Shown: positions 3,030 through 42,848 of the stretch, piece after piece
Layout of the letters: the number at the start of each line of letters is the position of its first letter
Position numbering within the stretch: the stretch's first letter is position 1
Source: Segetibacter sp. 3557_3
Lineage (GTDB): Bacteria; Bacteroidota; Bacteroidia; Chitinophagales; Chitinophagaceae
Assembly (NCBI RefSeq): GCF_004354985.1
Contig: NZ_SMSK01000012.1
Span: forward strand, 1 to 64,000
Length of the DNA: 64,000 nucleotides
Reading direction: 5' to 3'
The notes under the pieces: model-generated
The model's input: the letters and a program-made list of their open reading frames with translations, nothing else
Databases searched by the model: none
What the model was told of the DNA's origin: nothing
Translations under genes and position numbers: made by a program

Positions 3030-3690
3030 CAAAAGCCTGAAAGGCTTAATTCGAATAGCCGTCGGCGAAGCCAACGGTTAAGGCACGGGGCAACAAACAA
3101 CCCTGCAGGGGTTGAACGATTACAGTAAGAAAAAACCAGAGAGCTATGAGCACTTTTAGACAAATCTATTACCAGGTGGTATTTAGTACAAAAAATCGTG
3201 AGAACACCATAGCCGAACTGTACCAACAAGAATTGTACAAGTACATCTGGGGTATTATCAGCAATCTTAAATGTAAGCTGTACAGGATTAACAGTATGCC
3301 TGATCATGTACATATCTTCTCAGATTTACATCCTACATTATGCCTTAGTGATTATGTAAAAAACATCAAGGTGGCCAGTAATGTCTGGATGACAGGTAGT
3401 GGAAAGTTTCCGTTGTTCAAAGGATGGCAGGATGGCTACGGAGCATTTACGTATTCTGCAAAAGACAAGGACATGATAATCGATTACGTGAAGGACCAGA
3501 AAGAACACCACGAAAAGTACACTTTCCTGGAGGAATACAGGCATTTACTGACCGAGAACGGGATTGAGTTTGAGGAAAAGTATTTATTGTAGCAAAATAT
3601 TCAACCCCTTCAGGGTTGATAGTACAATCCGACTTATCCCCTGGTTTGCAACCAGGGCTATTTAAATTGAAGCCCGCCGGGCTTTTACTT
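3030..3690 (+). mobile_element. IS200-like / RAYT transposition unit with nested inverted ends
   Basis: The transposase gene 3146-3592 is bracketed by two nested sets of imperfect inverted repeats. The inner pair is ACAACCCTGCAGGGGTTGAA (3097-3116) against the reverse complement of 3600-3619, with two mismatches. The outer pair is AAAGCCTGAAAGGCTT plus a following AATAGCC (about 3032-3060), against a related sequence on the other strand at about 3655-3690. Each end is itself a small hairpin. This fits REP-associated or IS200-type single-strand transposases, which act on hairpin ends. The exact element boundaries are inferred. Confidence 0.65.
3146..3592 (+). CDS. IS200-like / REP-associated tyrosine (Y1) transposase
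   Basis: This 148-residue protein has the HUH metal-binding motif in PDHVHIF (His54, His56) and the Y1 signature IIDYVKDQKEHH with likely catalytic Tyr114. Such enzymes cut and join single-stranded DNA at hairpin-flanked sites. Its length matches the family and the frame is intact, so it may be active. No TnpB-like gene accompanies it. Palindromic ends on both sides support a RAYT or minimal IS200 unit; whether it handles the other repeats in the window is unknown. The start is the ATG after GAGAGCT. Confidence 0.9.
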   Translation: MSTFRQIYYQVVFSTKNRENTIAELYQQELYKYIWGIISNLKCKLYRINSMPDHVHIFSDLHPTLCLSDYVKNIKVASNVWMTGSGKFPLFKGWQDGYGAFTYSAKDKDMIIDYVKDQKEHHEKYTFLEEYRHLLTENGIEFEEKYLL

Positions 3691-11008: not shown

Positions 11009-11398
11009 ATGAAAACGGCAACTACAATTTCCCGGGTTTTACTTGGGTTTATTTACCTGGTTTTTGGGCTGGATTACTTTTTCCGTTTTATTCCGTATCA
11101 ACCCAATCATACGGGTATTGTAGCGGCATTCAAATCAGGACTATTGGGCGTAGGATATTTTTACCCGATGTTAAAATCGATACAGATTATTGGTGGCCTA
11201 TCCATGTTAGTAAATCGATATGCGCCCTTTTTTGCTGTCGTATTGTTTCCAATAAGCTTAAACGTATTTCTTTATCACACCATCCTGGTTCCTTCCGGTT
11301 GGTTGATGGGTGTATTGCTGATTGTACCCAACCTTTTTTTAGGATATGCATACCGCAAATACTATCATGGAATGTTTGTAAAGAAGCCAGTCTTGTAA
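11009..11398 (+). CDS. DoxX-like small membrane protein
   Basis: This 129-residue protein has four hydrophobic segments (about 7-27, 42-62, 72-90 and 94-114) and an N-terminal motif SRVLLGFIYLVFGLDYFF resembling the DoxX/DoxD-like family. Such proteins sit in the cytoplasmic membrane, and most have no proven function. The gene is monocistronic, with convergent TonB receptor and long spacers on both sides. The assignment rests on topology and the first helix only. Confidence 0.65.
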   Translation: MKTATTISRVLLGFIYLVFGLDYFFRFIPYQPNHTGIVAAFKSGLLGVGYFYPMLKSIQIIGGLSMLVNRYAPFFAVVLFPISLNVFLYHTILVPSGWLMGVLLIVPNLFLGYAYRKYYHGMFVKKPVL

Positions 11399-11538
11399 AC
11401 CCGGCTATGTTGAGTTGTTGTGCTAAAGACTAAATACTTGCTGTCAAAAGATACTGCCCAAGCAAGTACGAAGTTTGCCGAAGATCCAGGTCAGAACCCA
11501 CGATAGAAGAAGTTGTTTGGAACAGTGAGGAACAAAAA

Positions 11539-13974
11539 TCAATTCCCACTACCCACCCGGTTGATCTCCTCTGTTGCTCCACCCTCAGATCGTTTCAGGG
11601 CTTTCAGCGTCTGCCCAAACCGCCAGCTGAAAGTCAGTCGCGCCACTCTCGAATCCCATTGTATCCTAAACGGTTCATGCGAATTCTCGAACGTTGAATA
11701 GCCTGAATAATTCTGGAAATAAGTGATATCGCGGATGCCCAGTTTGAGGGATCCTGCACCCTTTAAGATTTGCTTGGAAACACCAAGGTTCAGTTCGCCC
11801 TGGGGCTCCAGCCATTCCTGTAAGTCGATCTGGCTCCGCGTTTGGTAATAGCCGCTGATTTCGGCGCCCCATCCTTTATTGAATTGGAACTGGTTGTTGA
11901 GGCTGATGTTAAGCTGGCTGATGTTTACTTTAAGGGGAGCCCATACAACCCCCTTTATGATCTTGTGATTGAACTGGGCAACTGCAGTAAGGTTCCACCA
12001 CCTTGTTACCGGGACCTGGTAGGTTTCGCTTAGGCCGAAATTCTGGAAAGAACCCACGTTTCCACGTGTGTAGATGATAATATTTCTGTTGATGTTACTG
12101 CTGCTGGAGTCGATAACGAATATCTGTGAAAAGTAATCGCGCAGGTAGCCGTACGACAATTCCGTGGTAAGCCGTTGCTTGTAGGTGTGTGCCAATGCAA
12201 AGTTCCAGGTGTACTGTGGTTTTATAAATGGATTGCCGCCTTCATAGGTGTATTTGTTTAGTGTTCTCAAAAAAGGATTCAGGTTTTGAAACGGCGGCCT
12301 GTCTATCCTTCTTCCTGTCCGAAGGGTGAACATGTTATTGCTATCGGTCTTGTAAGAAACAAAGGCGGTAGGAAAGAGGCTGCCATAGTTCCTGTTGAAT
12401 GCAGAATCCTTGATTTCGGCATTCCCAAGTTGGTAGGCTTTGTATGAAGTGATCTCGTATCTTAACCCGGCCTGCCAGTGCCATTTGCCTTGTTTTGCGT
12501 CTATACTCCCATAGGCGGCGCTGATCTTTTCTTTATACAAAAAATGGTTACTCCGGCTGAGGTCCGGAACCCAGTTGGCGGAATAGTACTGGAAATATTC
12601 GGCAAGGTTGTCGGTTTTGTTGATCGCGGTTTTGACTCCGGTTTCGAGCTGAAAACCTTTAAATCGCTTTGCGTAATCAACCTTGAACGTTACAATATCG
12701 AGCTTCGACGGGGTGTTCCCTTTTGTGGCCAATATCGGGCTGCCCGGTGCCAGCAACTGGGTTTGATAATTTTGATCGTTTGCAATGTTGAACTTCACAT
12801 AGTCTACGTCGAAACTCCATTCGCTGCTTGCATCGATGGTATGCCTGGCGTTCAGATTTATGCCGCCCCTTCTGAACCCCATATTGTTTTCGCCCAGGGT
12901 ATTAATAGTTGAGTCTGTTTGAAACTTAGGGTCCATCCATTTGATTGCGCTGGTAAAGTTATTCACCCGGTTTAAGGTGCTGCCGGTAAATACCAAACTC
13001 AACGTCGTGCGGCTGCTTACAAAGAAGTCTACGCCAGTTTTTACATTCTGGCCCGAAACTGTGTTCTTGCCAAAGTTCGGTTGCTCAAGCAGGGCAGAGT
13101 CTGCCCCGCGGCGGCTGAAGTAGGTGCGAAGACTCCAGATGTCCTGGAACTCGGTGTTAGCACGGAACCCATAGTTCATAAACAGGTTCATTTTTCCTTC
13201 GCGGTAATTCAGGTTGATTGTATTACCTGTTTTCGAATAAACCCCCTGCCCGATGCTTACACTTAACGAGCCATTGAATCCCCTTTGTTTGTTGGCCCTC
13301 GTTTTTATGTTTATGATACCAGCGTTGCCAGCAGCATCATATTTGGCACCCGGGTTTTCAATGAGCTCAATGACTTCTACCAGCGATGCACTCATGCCCG
13401 ACAGGTACGACTGCAGCTCGGCGCCACTGAGTTGTGTAGGTTTGCCATCGATAAACACCGAAACCGCGGGTTTGCCTTTCATGATAATGGAGCCATCTTT
13501 TCCAACGGTTAAGCCGGGCGATTTTTCGAGTACTTCCATAACCGTTGCACCTGCGTTGGTAATGTTGGCTTCGGGGTTGATCACCGTTTTGTCGGGCAGA
13601 AATTGAACGAAAGCTTTTTTAGAAAGTACCGTTACATTGTTCAGTAACCGGGCTTTCAATTGCAGCACAATCGTATCGGTCACAACAGTATCTAAGTTTA
13701 GATGGATCGGTTTGCCAAACTGGTCTTCATGGCCCGATGCGCTGGCCTTTACGAGGTATGTTCCGGGGTTCATTTCACCAAACTCAATGCTGCCCGTGGA
13801 GTCAGCCGCGGCGGTACGGATGGTTACTGAATCCCCTGTTAGTAAGTTTACCGTAGCACCCGGAAGTGTTGCTTTCCGGTCGTTCAGCACAGTAATGCGG
13901 ACAAGCGGTTTTACCTGCGCGTACACATGGGTATAAAAACAGATCAAAAGAAAAGCGACGAGTGCTTTAAGCAT
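11539..13974 (-). CDS. TonB-dependent receptor, OMP beta-barrel family
   Basis: This 811-residue outer-membrane protein has a signal peptide (1-19, ending VYA) and a carboxypeptidase-regulatory-like beta-sandwich (about 22-105). The plug domain contains SGMSASLVEVIELIENPGAK and IINIKT (about 115-230). A long beta-barrel rich in aromatic strand ends follows, closing with TFSWRFG near the C-terminus. This architecture is common among non-SusC TonB receptors of Bacteroidota. No SusD partner lies next to it, so it is not a glycan uptake pair in the usual sense. The ligand is unknown. Confidence 0.85.
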   Translation of the reverse strand: MLKALVAFLLICFYTHVYAQVKPLVRITVLNDRKATLPGATVNLLTGDSVTIRTAAADSTGSIEFGEMNPGTYLVKASASGHEDQFGKPIHLNLDTVVTDTIVLQLKARLLNNVTVLSKKAFVQFLPDKTVINPEANITNAGATVMEVLEKSPGLTVGKDGSIIMKGKPAVSVFIDGKPTQLSGAELQSYLSGMSASLVEVIELIENPGAKYDAAGNAGIINIKTRANKQRGFNGSLSVSIGQGVYSKTGNTINLNYREGKMNLFMNYGFRANTEFQDIWSLRTYFSRRGADSALLEQPNFGKNTVSGQNVKTGVDFFVSSRTTLSLVFTGSTLNRVNNFTSAIKWMDPKFQTDSTINTLGENNMGFRRGGINLNARHTIDASSEWSFDVDYVKFNIANDQNYQTQLLAPGSPILATKGNTPSKLDIVTFKVDYAKRFKGFQLETGVKTAINKTDNLAEYFQYYSANWVPDLSRSNHFLYKEKISAAYGSIDAKQGKWHWQAGLRYEITSYKAYQLGNAEIKDSAFNRNYGSLFPTAFVSYKTDSNNMFTLRTGRRIDRPPFQNLNPFLRTLNKYTYEGGNPFIKPQYTWNFALAHTYKQRLTTELSYGYLRDYFSQIFVIDSSSSNINRNIIIYTRGNVGSFQNFGLSETYQVPVTRWWNLTAVAQFNHKIIKGVVWAPLKVNISQLNISLNNQFQFNKGWGAEISGYYQTRSQIDLQEWLEPQGELNLGVSKQILKGAGSLKLGIRDITYFQNYSGYSTFENSHEPFRIQWDSRVARLTFSWRFGQTLKALKRSEGGATEEINRVGSGN

Positions 13975-18168: not shown

Positions 18169-18490
18169 CGCTTTCTCCGCTTCGATCTCCCCTGTGGACG
18201 GCCTTATACAAAAGGCGTTAAGAACTTTACTTCAAAGATGCGTTAAGCAGCGAAAATGGAGAACTTTGTACAACTGGGATTTATGAGTCCTCGCTAAGCA
18301 AAGATCCACAGCCCGGCTTTAGCTTTTTCGCTGTAGCATCGTGAAGTAAAGTTTAGCCTTTTGTATACAGCCCCGTCCGACTGGCGTCAGCCGGGCGGGC
18401 TTGATCTTTTTGCTTCTTTTTGCCCGTCCGAATGGCTTCAGCCGGGCGGGCATCAAAGCCTGTCCCGACAAAGTCGGGAGCAAAAAGAAG
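18169..18490 (-). repeat. Repeat family B, copy B1 (long hairpin) with two REP-like palindromes
   Basis: In the minus orientation a CTTCTTTTTGC/GCAAAAAGAAG stem comes first, then a 28-bp palindrome (18372-18399). The left arm is 18312-18370, a loop follows, and the right arm is 18200-18258. Both arms carry TATACAAAAGGC and ACTTTACTTCA. A second palindrome at 18422-18451 fills the loop of the first stem. No coding sequence is present. Confidence 0.8.
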
Positions 18491-18699: not shown

Positions 18700-18800
18700 A
18701 TCCACAGCGCGGTTTAGCTTTTTCACTGTAGCAGCATAGTAAATTTCAGCCGTTTCAATACAGCCACGCCGACTGGCGTCAGTGGACGGGCTGATCTTTT
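18700..18800 (-). repeat. Repeat family B, half copy B4
   Basis: Only the left arm (TTTAGCTTTTTCACTGTAGC onwards) and a REP-like palindrome (about 18762-18790) are present; the right arm is missing. It lies between A4 and the YtxH-like gene. Confidence 0.6.
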
Positions 18801-27864: not shown

Positions 27865-29064
27865 TTATTTCGTCTTACTTGCCTCAAGAACTGCGGTAAA
27901 AGCCGGCTTAGCGTTTAGCTCTCCATCAAATAGGAGCGCATCCTGCCCCCTGCGCCATGAGCGGGTATCGCTTAGGCCCCAGAAGGTTACGCGGTCAATA
28001 ACTTTTTCGTGACGCATGAAGATTTCGAACAACTTTTTATAGACCTCAGCCTGCTTTTCATAATTCTCTGCCGGAATTTTCCGGTCTCCCTGGTTTACAC
28101 CCATAGCGCCACTATTACTTCCTGTTGCTGTTACGTCCAGTTCGGTAATAGAAACCTTGAGACCTAGGGCCGCATAGTTTTCAATAGCTTTTTCCACATC
28201 GGCGAGGTTGGTGTTCAGGTGCCAATGTCCCTGGATGCCTACACCGGTGATTGGAGCACCTTCTTTAAGGAGTCGCTTAAGCAGTAACAGGGAGCTTGCG
28301 TGTTTGCCTTTATTTTCCACCGCGCCCTGCTCGATGTTGTAATCGTTGTAGTACAACTGCGCCTTAGGATCAGCTTCATGTGCCCACTTGAAAGCCTGGG
28401 TGATCACTTCTGGTCCAACGGCCTTATACCAACTCCAGGTTCTGAGGTTTTCTGTTGAGCCGTCACCGCCGTCGGCAATGGATTCATTAAATACATCCCA
28501 GCCGGTAATACGTCCTTTGTATCGTCCGGCTACGGTCATGATATGTTTCTTCAGACGTTCCAAAACGACTTCTTTGCTTGCGAGCGGACCGGGAATAAAG
28601 CCCGGCGGGTTGCGACGTGGCCTGCTAGTGTCGCCTGGTTGCCGAGGAGTTGGCGGAGGGGGTGGAGGGGTTGGGGTGGCGGTCGCCGCACCTTTCTCCT
28701 GGAAGAACCATTGCGGGGTTTGTCCATGCCAGGCTAAGGTATGTCCCCAAACCTTTACATCGTTCTTCATACACCAATCCACCATGGCATCGGCGGTTTC
28801 AAATGTGTAGGTGTCCTCGGTAGGATGCGTGCGCTCCGGTTTCATGCAATTTTCCGGGGTAACGATGTCGTAATGTTTTTTGATACTTGCCTGGTAGGTT
28901 TCTGAGTTCATCCTTAAATCATCGGCAGCCCCTATCCAGAACTTTCCTTTATAGGCCTGCTTTAATGATTTTTGAGCCGCTACAGGGATCTTTTCCTGTC
29001 CGACTGCACTGACAGCCACCGTTGCACTCAAGATGATGCTTGTGACCAGTTTTTTGTTAATCAT
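27865..29064 (-). CDS. GH10 endo-1,4-beta-xylanase
   Basis: I start at ATG 29062-29064 (MINKKLVTSIILSATVAVSA, a signal peptide). The longer frame begins at about the predicted promoter, so it is not supported. The 399-residue enzyme has the GH10 barrel with WGHTLAWHGQTP, acid/base Glu194 in WDVFNE and nucleophile Glu308 in SITELD. Residues about 125-158 are a Pro/Thr-rich, low-complexity insert (TPTPPPPPPTPRQP then a basic stretch) inside the barrel, which is unusual. It cuts xylan backbones in the periplasm or outside. A LacI-type operator and a -7 box lie upstream; an esterase gene faces away on the other side. Confidence 0.93.
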   Translation of the reverse strand: MINKKLVTSIILSATVAVSAVGQEKIPVAAQKSLKQAYKGKFWIGAADDLRMNSETYQASIKKHYDIVTPENCMKPERTHPTEDTYTFETADAMVDWCMKNDVKVWGHTLAWHGQTPQWFFQEKGAATATPTPPPPPPTPRQPGDTSRPRRNPPGFIPGPLASKEVVLERLKKHIMTVAGRYKGRITGWDVFNESIADGGDGSTENLRTWSWYKAVGPEVITQAFKWAHEADPKAQLYYNDYNIEQGAVENKGKHASSLLLLKRLLKEGAPITGVGIQGHWHLNTNLADVEKAIENYAALGLKVSITELDVTATGSNSGAMGVNQGDRKIPAENYEKQAEVYKKLFEIFMRHEKVIDRVTFWGLSDTRSWRRGQDALLFDGELNAKPAFTAVLEASKTK

Positions 29065-29181
29065 TGTTTTTACGTTGGGTTGTATTAAGTTAATGGTATC
29101 GATGCTGTGTTTTATTGTTCCCCGTACCGGATAAAAGGTTTGCTGTTCCTTCTTTTTTAAAGTTGAGACTGCAGTGTTTCC

Positions 29182-29189
29182 CAAACATA
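29182..29189 (-). promoter_or_regulatory. -7 box of the xylanase promoter
   Basis: TATGTTTG on the minus strand matches TAnnTTTG. Transcription would start near 29176, about 110 bases before the chosen start codon. No convincing -33 box was seen. Confidence 0.55.
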
Positions 29190-29486: not shown

Positions 29487-29765
29487 TGTTTTGCTTTTCT
29501 TTTTGTCTTGATACAAAAAGAAACAAAAAGATCAAGCCCGCCCGGCTGACGCCAGTCGGACGGGGCTGTATAGAAAAGGCTAATCTTTACTTCAGGCTGC
29601 TACAGCGGAAAAGCTAAAGCCCGGCCAGGAATCACCTGTCAGGTAAGACTTGTGAAATATCACTGTGCACAGCTTAGCATTTTCGCTGCTTAACGCATCC
29701 TTGAAGTAAAGTTCTTAACGCCTTTTCTATAAGGCCAAATCAGCGAAGATCGAAGCGTATCAAGC
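29487..29765 (+). repeat. Repeat family B, copy B2 (long hairpin)
   Basis: A TTTCTTTTTGT-cttgat-ACAAAAAGAAA stem comes first, then a 28-bp palindrome (29537-29564). The left arm is 29565-29620, the loop 29621-29670 and the right arm 29671-29736. Both arms carry TATAGAAAAGGC and CTTTACTTCA in complementary form. The gap 29238-30087 holds no other feature I can support. Confidence 0.8.
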
Positions 29766-38525: not shown

Positions 38526-38775
38526 GTCACTTTCTTTTTCTTGAAAAAAAGAAAGTGACCAAAGAAAATTCAAGGCTGTATAAAAATCGGCTAAAATTGC
38601 CTAATGTCTCTACAGCGAAAAAGCTAAAGCCGGTCTGTTTGTCTTTTGTCTGCGGAAACTTGTGAATATCATAGGGCTACAACTCTGCATTTTCGCTGCT
38701 TAACGAGACATTAGTCAATTTTCTTAACGCCATTTTTATAAGGCCGGACGAGCGAAGATCGTAGCGTAAAAGTTT
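38526..38775 (+). repeat. Repeat family B, copy B3 (long hairpin, no palindrome insertion)
   Basis: A CACTTTCTTTTT-cttga-AAAAAGAAAGTG stem comes first. The left arm is 38575-38630, a loop follows, and the right arm is 38686-38745. Both arms carry TATAAAAAT and a segment close to AATTGCCTAATGTCTC in complementary form. The palindrome seen in B1 and B2 is absent between TTCAAG and GCTGTAT (38575). Confidence 0.8.
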
Positions 38776-42656: not shown

Positions 42657-42848
42657 CAATAGACGCATTCATGCTATGGTTTAACAAGATTTAATTGCTT
42701 TGAAGATTTGCTCTTGAAATTGAACATCGCTCGCAAAGCTTCCGATTTTAATTATTAATAAAGAGTAATTGTACGCATACCTGGAGACCTGAAACCAATA
42801 TAAACGGGGCGTAACCGAAAAGCCAAAAGAGTAGGACGTAGCTATACT

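Follow-up and report, generated by a model that had tools for sequence, protein, structure and literature searches.

A dispersed family of drifting hairpins with a pseudoknot leader in Bacteroidota, probably selected as RNA of the complement strand

The long hairpin at 29.5 kb in a 64,000-nucleotide stretch of the Segetibacter sp. 3557_3 genome (contig NZ_SMSK01000012.1; the window) belongs to a dispersed non-coding family whose sequence drifts while its fold stays. The element is built of this hairpin and of a short "leader" which, as judged from compensatory changes in both of its stems, is an H-type pseudoknot.

Architecture and co-variation of the element

Three full copies lie in the window, labelled here B1 (29.5 kb; 29495-29757, + strand), B2 (18.2 kb; 18200-18490, − strand) and B3 (38.6 kb; 38527-38767, + strand), and the short leader and long hairpin are common to all three. 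In B1, the predicted leader pseudoknot (29495-29536, +) combines the stem CTTTTTG/CAAAAAG with pairing of the loop CTTGAT to a downstream ATCAAG, and the same pairs co-vary over 218 leaders. It is followed by an inserted REP-like palindrome (29537-29563, +), by the long co-varying hairpin that forms the core (29564-29736, +, the selected strand probably being the complement) and by a short AGCGAAGATCGAAGCG-like tail (29737-29757, +), common by alignment to the own-genome copies. B2, on the − strand, carries its core at 18200-18372, a REP-like palindrome at the leader–hairpin junction (18373-18399) and a leader (18400-18490) whose loop is enlarged by inserted palindromes; a partial copy at 18713-18800 (−) consists of the REP-like palindrome and 5′ arm only (83% over 88 bases). 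B3 comprises a leader pseudoknot (38527-38573, +) with a CACTTTCTTT-type stem and a loop CTTGAA pairing with downstream TTCAAG, the core (38574-38745, +) and the common tail (38746-38767, +). An earlier note on this DNA had described the copies without these insertions, and its description is corrected accordingly for B1, with a palindrome between leader and hairpin, and for B2, with one there and more inside the leader loop. The REP-like palindrome within these two elements is CCCGCCCGGCTGACGCCAGTCGGACGGG; 34 of 44 own-genome sequence matches span just this palindrome, and a relative of it sits inside a 3′ arm in L009/L010. A GH10-family glycoside hydrolase gene (27865-29184, −) adjoins B1, and the sole Rfam match of the window is a DUF805 RNA at 42776-42841 (+).

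The claim that the hairpin's arms differ between copies yet match within each copy, made in the earlier note from the letters of the window, is borne out at 29.5 kb and in the sister copies. TATAC, TATAG and TATAA recur in both arms at 18.2, 29.5 and 38.6 kb, respectively, an agreement which assumes that the B1 of that note is the 18.2-kb copy; CTTTACTTCA is found in the arms at 18.2 and 29.5 kb, and a different arm pair takes its place at 38.6 kb. The region 29487-29765 folds with z = −6.7, none of 200 shuffles folding as well. The covariance model and covariation test proposed in the note yielded compensation far beyond chance that continues across the phylum. Among six own-genome copies, both-side changes occurred in 20 cells versus 7.5 in shuffles (0/500), and 94.1% of cells paired versus 34–50% with slid partners; the number of further pair types was not unusual, being reached in 81 of 500 shuffles. 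A wider sample was filtered from 249 leader matches to 138 copies of the hairpin type, recognised by two motifs, and to 67 after removal of near-copies. In these 67 non-redundant copies, drawn from many genomes, arms scored 23.1 with their own partner and 11.0 when swapped, with 0/10,000 permutations reaching the own mean, and the own partner ranked first in 43 copies and not in the remaining 24. The drift of the arms is accompanied by persisting loops, pseudoknot pairs and an asymmetric motif, GCTAAAA opposite TTTCTTAACGC.

The small leading stem around CTTGA, for which the same behaviour had been claimed, also compensates, and corresponds to the two stems of the pseudoknot. The 218 distinct leaders count sequences and not independent events, some being close copies from one genome. 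Their free stem pair is Watson–Crick in 211 (92 expected if independent), and so is the free loop-to-downstream pair, likewise in 211 (100 expected). The four outer stem pairs are Watson–Crick in 204 to 209 of the 218 (92 to 140 expected), and pairs beyond them fade out.

Distribution, genomic setting and spread

Searched over its 6.75 Mb and 35 contigs, the own genome was matched seven times by a covariance model derived from six of its copies, the seventh copy (C30) carrying very different arms between the same anchors. The same model found matches in 45 of 244 genomes of the taxonomic family, the own genome included, at E ≤ 1e-3 and in 52 of 244 at E ≤ 1; since at most 11 candidates were scored per genome, copy numbers are lower bounds. 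All 29 best loci outside the own genome match the model again. By eye, their plan runs from the leader through G(G/A)CTG or similar, a drifting arm, GCTAAAA and a further drifting arm into a terminal domain, which occurs in about three kinds, and from there through TTAACG, an arm, TTTCTTAACGC and another arm to a GGCC-like end. Such a structure model was needed because exact own-genome sequence patterns gave chance-level matches only in other genomes. Of 395 genomes of the phylum, 78, under 15 family codes, contain a leader pattern in which three single positions and the linker were left free, a count that takes single matches in distant families without individual inspection; the reversed-pattern control gave 0 genomes among the matches listed. 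The leader was found in 24 of 29 chosen carrier genomes, with a maximum of 83 matches in G128.

Blastn against plasmids and phages returned no match, and Rfam, at the curated gathering score, gave none at an element in the window and nine loci with copies. Literature searches by sequence strings and topics, including the parts consulted of PMC6006769 and PMC3733652, did not find the element described. As far as these searches and Rfam reach, it is undescribed so far.

Two further modules were seen by eye or at individual loci. A terminal domain with a conserved GAACTCG...CTCAAACAG occurs in L101, L103, L107, L109 and L114, and on the complement it could form tandem G-A beside U-U mismatches, an RNA internal-loop motif. 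In L116, L120, L221 and L241, the same leader is followed by a short hairpin with a loop like ATTACAGCC and a drifting stem of its own; this second module often stands at the element's far end in inverted orientation.

The copies are intergenic, with 3 of 138 overlapping an ORF of at least 150 amino acids. Where both neighbours are near (115 copies in genomes), these are convergent in 40, tandem in 65 and divergent in 10, and there is no orientation bias to the flanking genes, a complement-sense gene leading into the copy in 75 of the 115 and a +-sense gene in 70. Runs of copies in the same orientation, spaced 245–485 bp apart, occur in several genomes. Pairs of leaders 2 kb apart (L116, L123) turned out to be separate short elements flanking unrelated genes.

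How copies spread is most legible in one genus, g54, whose genome G063 holds 45 nearly alike leaders in 41 stretches. Most of these lie inside a unit of about 480 bp with the ends ACTGAGTATCCGC and GCGGATAGTCAGT, which has 12–13 bp terminal inverted repeats (TIRs), 8–9 bp AT-rich target duplications and no gene. An exact flanking repeat of at least 8 bp accompanies 24 of 39 distinct TIR-bounded g54 copies and is absent from 15, whereas mismatched flanks reach such a repeat in 0.8%; an earlier tally of 43/68 had counted most copies in both orientations, and 39 is the number of distinct copies. Internally deleted versions of 99–126 bp also exist. At one orthologous place the unit is absent from a related genome, the spacer there being too diverged for a clean empty site. 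The arrangement differs elsewhere: in G172, an inverted leader and a short hairpin stand at the far end. In G128, TTGTCCGANTAAAGT-like inverted ends were noticed by eye on both sides of the copies at L304 and L307, with 9–12 bp direct repeats further out, which suggests another carrier unit.

No transposase was recognised by eye in or beside the units read (30 loci at ±1.5 kb; TIR sites number 35 in G063 and 24 in G222), and neither TIR nor duplication was recognised around the own-genome copies by eye and blastn. Among neighbouring proteins no family stands out, with only small clusters of common families, and no autonomous parent was seen. The family is, very probably, dispersed and at least partly mobile. 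The earlier note had offered copying through a folded strand as one source of the compensation; where spread was dissected, in this one genus, its marks are instead those of ordinary DNA transposition, namely TIRs and target duplications.

Viral contigs carry the leader as well, in 27 stretches of 25 contigs, of which at least 6 stretches are, by eye, chance leader-like matches lacking the hairpin, five of them sharing one phage gene. In two related phage contigs, L349 and L365, with 57% identity between their major head proteins, a copy separates the gene for the major head protein from a phrog_673 (head scaffolding) gene, and in L349 a small ORF lies in the same interval. The models locate five copies, three of them in L349 and the other two in L365, all between minus-strand genes, so that the complement is in sense for these copies. 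The sixth copy, truncated where contig L365 ends, comes after a + gene, and copies in other viral contigs occur in both orientations.

The strand probably under selection

A palindromic fold can be drawn on either strand, and the mismatches within it tell the two apart. Were the + strand the selected RNA, G·U would be tolerated and A·C not expected. The alignment treats G·T and A·C alike, and a strict count, requiring two Watson–Crick pairs on each side of a mismatch, gave 36 A·C versus 7 G·T on the + strand of the 67 copies (p = 9e-6) and 69 versus 11 over all 138. An A·C on the + strand is a G·U wobble on the complement. The imbalance holds at 24 versus 2 (p = 1e-5) once recurring conserved sites, chosen by eye and accounting for 12 of the 36 A·C and 5 of the 7 G·T, are removed; a further 56 mismatches of the transversion type in the strict count were left unused. 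Conserved loops dominate a loose count, which is therefore almost even (G·T 146, A·C 188). Taken by themselves, the leader stems show no significant one-sidedness (G·T 11, A·C 19, p = 0.2).

Folding energies largely point the same way. With RNA parameters, 58 of the 67 copies have their more stable fold on the complement (mean −6.8 kcal/mol); with DNA parameters, 49 do, and 17 have it on the + strand. The consensus fold of the six own copies reaches −37.6 kcal/mol on the complement versus −33.6 kcal/mol on the + strand, and in the same six, what looks like a bulged motif on the + strand becomes a helix with invariant G-U pairs on the complement. A U-run of at least four follows the complement hairpin in 66 of 67 copies. 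Covariance models of the two strands are more divided: of 47 comparable matches, 28 score better with the complement model and 18 with the + model, and 1 is a tie. At L224 and L229, all eight matches score higher with the + model; single-sequence folding of eight copies from that side of the phylum favoured the complement in seven.

On this sequence evidence, RNA of the complement strand is probably what selection acts on, and RNA is favoured because the mismatches are of the wobble type on one strand. The part of the earlier note that invoked selection on a folded strand thus stands on the compensation and on the one-sided wobble mismatches, its alternative of copying through the fold finds no support so far, and the strand that it had folded is probably the wrong one, the wobble strand being its complement.

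Rival readings and a possible role at RNA 3′ ends

Matched arms in intergenic, multicopy sequences might also be those of DNA palindromes with no selected function, in which templated mutation or gene conversion between the arms (quasi-palindrome correction) keeps them similar, a process able to account for matched arms in any sequence. This is unlikely here, because plain arm-to-arm homogenisation should erase conserved loops and departures from symmetry, and the asymmetric motif, the loops and the pseudoknot pairs all persist despite arm drift; nor does it predict mismatches one-sided between strands. A different DNA-level reading takes the element for REP-like single-stranded DNA that, in the manner of REPs and REPINs, owes its mobility to a Y1/HUH transposase (RAYT). 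Like those repeats, it is intergenic, dispersed, palindromic, multicopy and sometimes tandem, with arms that stay paired, and the window itself holds a Y1_Tnp (IS200/RAYT-like) ORF at 3146-3592 (+; 82 bits). In Bacteroidetes, RAYT genes of subclass 2.6 are flanked by atypical structures with copies elsewhere, according to the part of PMC6006769 consulted. Unlike REPs and REPINs, however, the element, about 250 nt long, includes two to three internal motifs as well as a pseudoknot, and is unlinked to the Y1 genes examined. A Y1_Tnp match (E ≤ 0.001, a threshold below which a divergent Y1 could fall) occurs in 14 of 20 carrier genomes and is missing from 6, including the many-copy G172 and G109. 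The element lies near 1 of 31 Y1 loci (L136) within 1.5 kb on each side, and L149 and L159, which have the transposase sequence of L136, lack it at that place. All six loci resembling subclass 2.6, read as such from a motif, carry other palindromes, and the ends in G172 are, as far as read, of the DNA type only. Movement by RAYT is accordingly rated distinctly unlikely, and Y1 as a general mobiliser was dropped, since Y1 loci and carriers do not match the distribution of the element. Repeats with an inner palindrome TTCGAGGTGCCCTGCGGAACACCTCGAA stand near the Y1_Tnp ORF of the window (957, 2905, 8843, 18046, 18600) and may be its own REPs. Integron attC sites show core-site complementarity, and by eye none of that type was seen in the element.

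Three readings that start from RNA fare no better. A family of genes for trans-acting small RNAs, each under a promoter of its own and multiplied by duplication, would suit the strong fold and the terminator-like hairpins behind some copies (L225, g54), but a TAnnTTTG-type promoter is not enriched (8/67 and 4/66 by strand, against about 10% in shuffles), and copy numbers of up to 83 and spread with TIRs and target duplications also speak against a reading that we regard as improbable; three small-RNA-type readings were dropped for want of promoters above shuffles. Very improbable, too, is a retroelement-like, bacterial SINE-like life cycle in which a trans-acting reverse transcriptase would copy the folded RNA into DNA and insert it. 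A structured RNA, a 3′ pseudoknot and many dispersed copies would agree with it, as would, in a single case, a retron-type reverse transcriptase between two copies in L116 of G172 (11318-12223, −; best PADLOC model RT_VI, 1.5e-59), but the unit that spread in g54 has TIRs and target duplications. In omega/reRNA-type guide RNAs, a pseudoknot lies next to the element end. That general likeness would be the ground for a guide RNA of a TnpB-like nuclease, its guide taken from the flank beside the pseudoknot, and it has hardly any probability: PF07282 is above cut-off in 0 of 28 carrier genomes and below it in 2, Rfam gives no match, and the candidate was not borne out.

Comparison with known systems brings out what is particular to the family. 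The g54 unit, and it alone, resembles a MITE in its size, TIRs, target duplications, internally deleted versions and lack of a gene; unlike a MITE, it conserves at its core a folded strand whose motifs are strand-specific, this core is common to genomes in which such TIRs were not seen, and no parent transposon was found in the loci read. On the complement, the sequence signals of an intrinsic terminator are present, that is, a stable hairpin with a G-C base followed by a U-run, rare between divergent genes, but the arms measure 55–60 nt, a conserved GA interrupts the U-run and a conserved pseudoknot lies behind. ENEs and telomerase-RNA-type pseudoknots are triple-helix 3′ elements, and the leader recalls them in its U-rich loop beside an A-rich stem, its H-type pseudoknot, its position on the 3′ side of the RNA and a loop length that tracks stem length: read on the complement strand, a longer A-run in the stem goes with a longer maximal U-run in the linker (Spearman 0.65, 85 distinct combinations). 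It differs from them in being bacterial and lacking a poly(A) tail, and its U·A-U and C·G-C base triples are putative; triple-helix orientation scores are 3.15 for the own arrangement, 3.32 mirrored, and 3.01 on average and 3.25 at most when swapped.

The preferred account, selection on complement-strand RNA, would place the parts in the order 5′-long hairpin (drifting complementary arms, conserved loops)–U-run–H-type pseudoknot-3′. Mobile DNA would have carried the copies along for at least part of their spread, in one genus inside the unit of about 480 bp. The complement would be transcribed, probably by read-through, as no promoter signal was found; hairpin and U-run would then stop or slow the polymerase, and the pseudoknot, with its U-rich loop beside an A-rich stem, would hinder 3′ decay. 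A function in 3′-end termination or protection, suggested by sequence features, is accordingly possible though rather doubtful. The overall picture of a phylum-wide structured family, selected as complement RNA, carried by mobile DNA and acting as a 3′-end module, is put forward tentatively, at somewhat less than an even chance. Its boldest form, unlikely as it may be, is a phylum-wide bacterial and phage RNA module ending in a telomerase/ENE-like U·A-U triple-helix pseudoknot that would guard the 3′ end, and that would be spread by, and perhaps serve, mobile DNA.

Eukaryotic transposon RNAs carry triple-helix elements, and the triple-helix reading, if true, would supply their bacterial counterpart. 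The count of A·C against G·T mismatches can show which strand of a palindrome is selected, an inexpensive check that suits many repeats of this kind. The family, carried by about a fifth of the genomes sampled in the phylum, keeps its fold under free sequence drift and has no Rfam family, and if the RNA reading is true, it would be a testable 3′-end element and an example of mobile DNA that spreads the fold of an RNA, not a gene.
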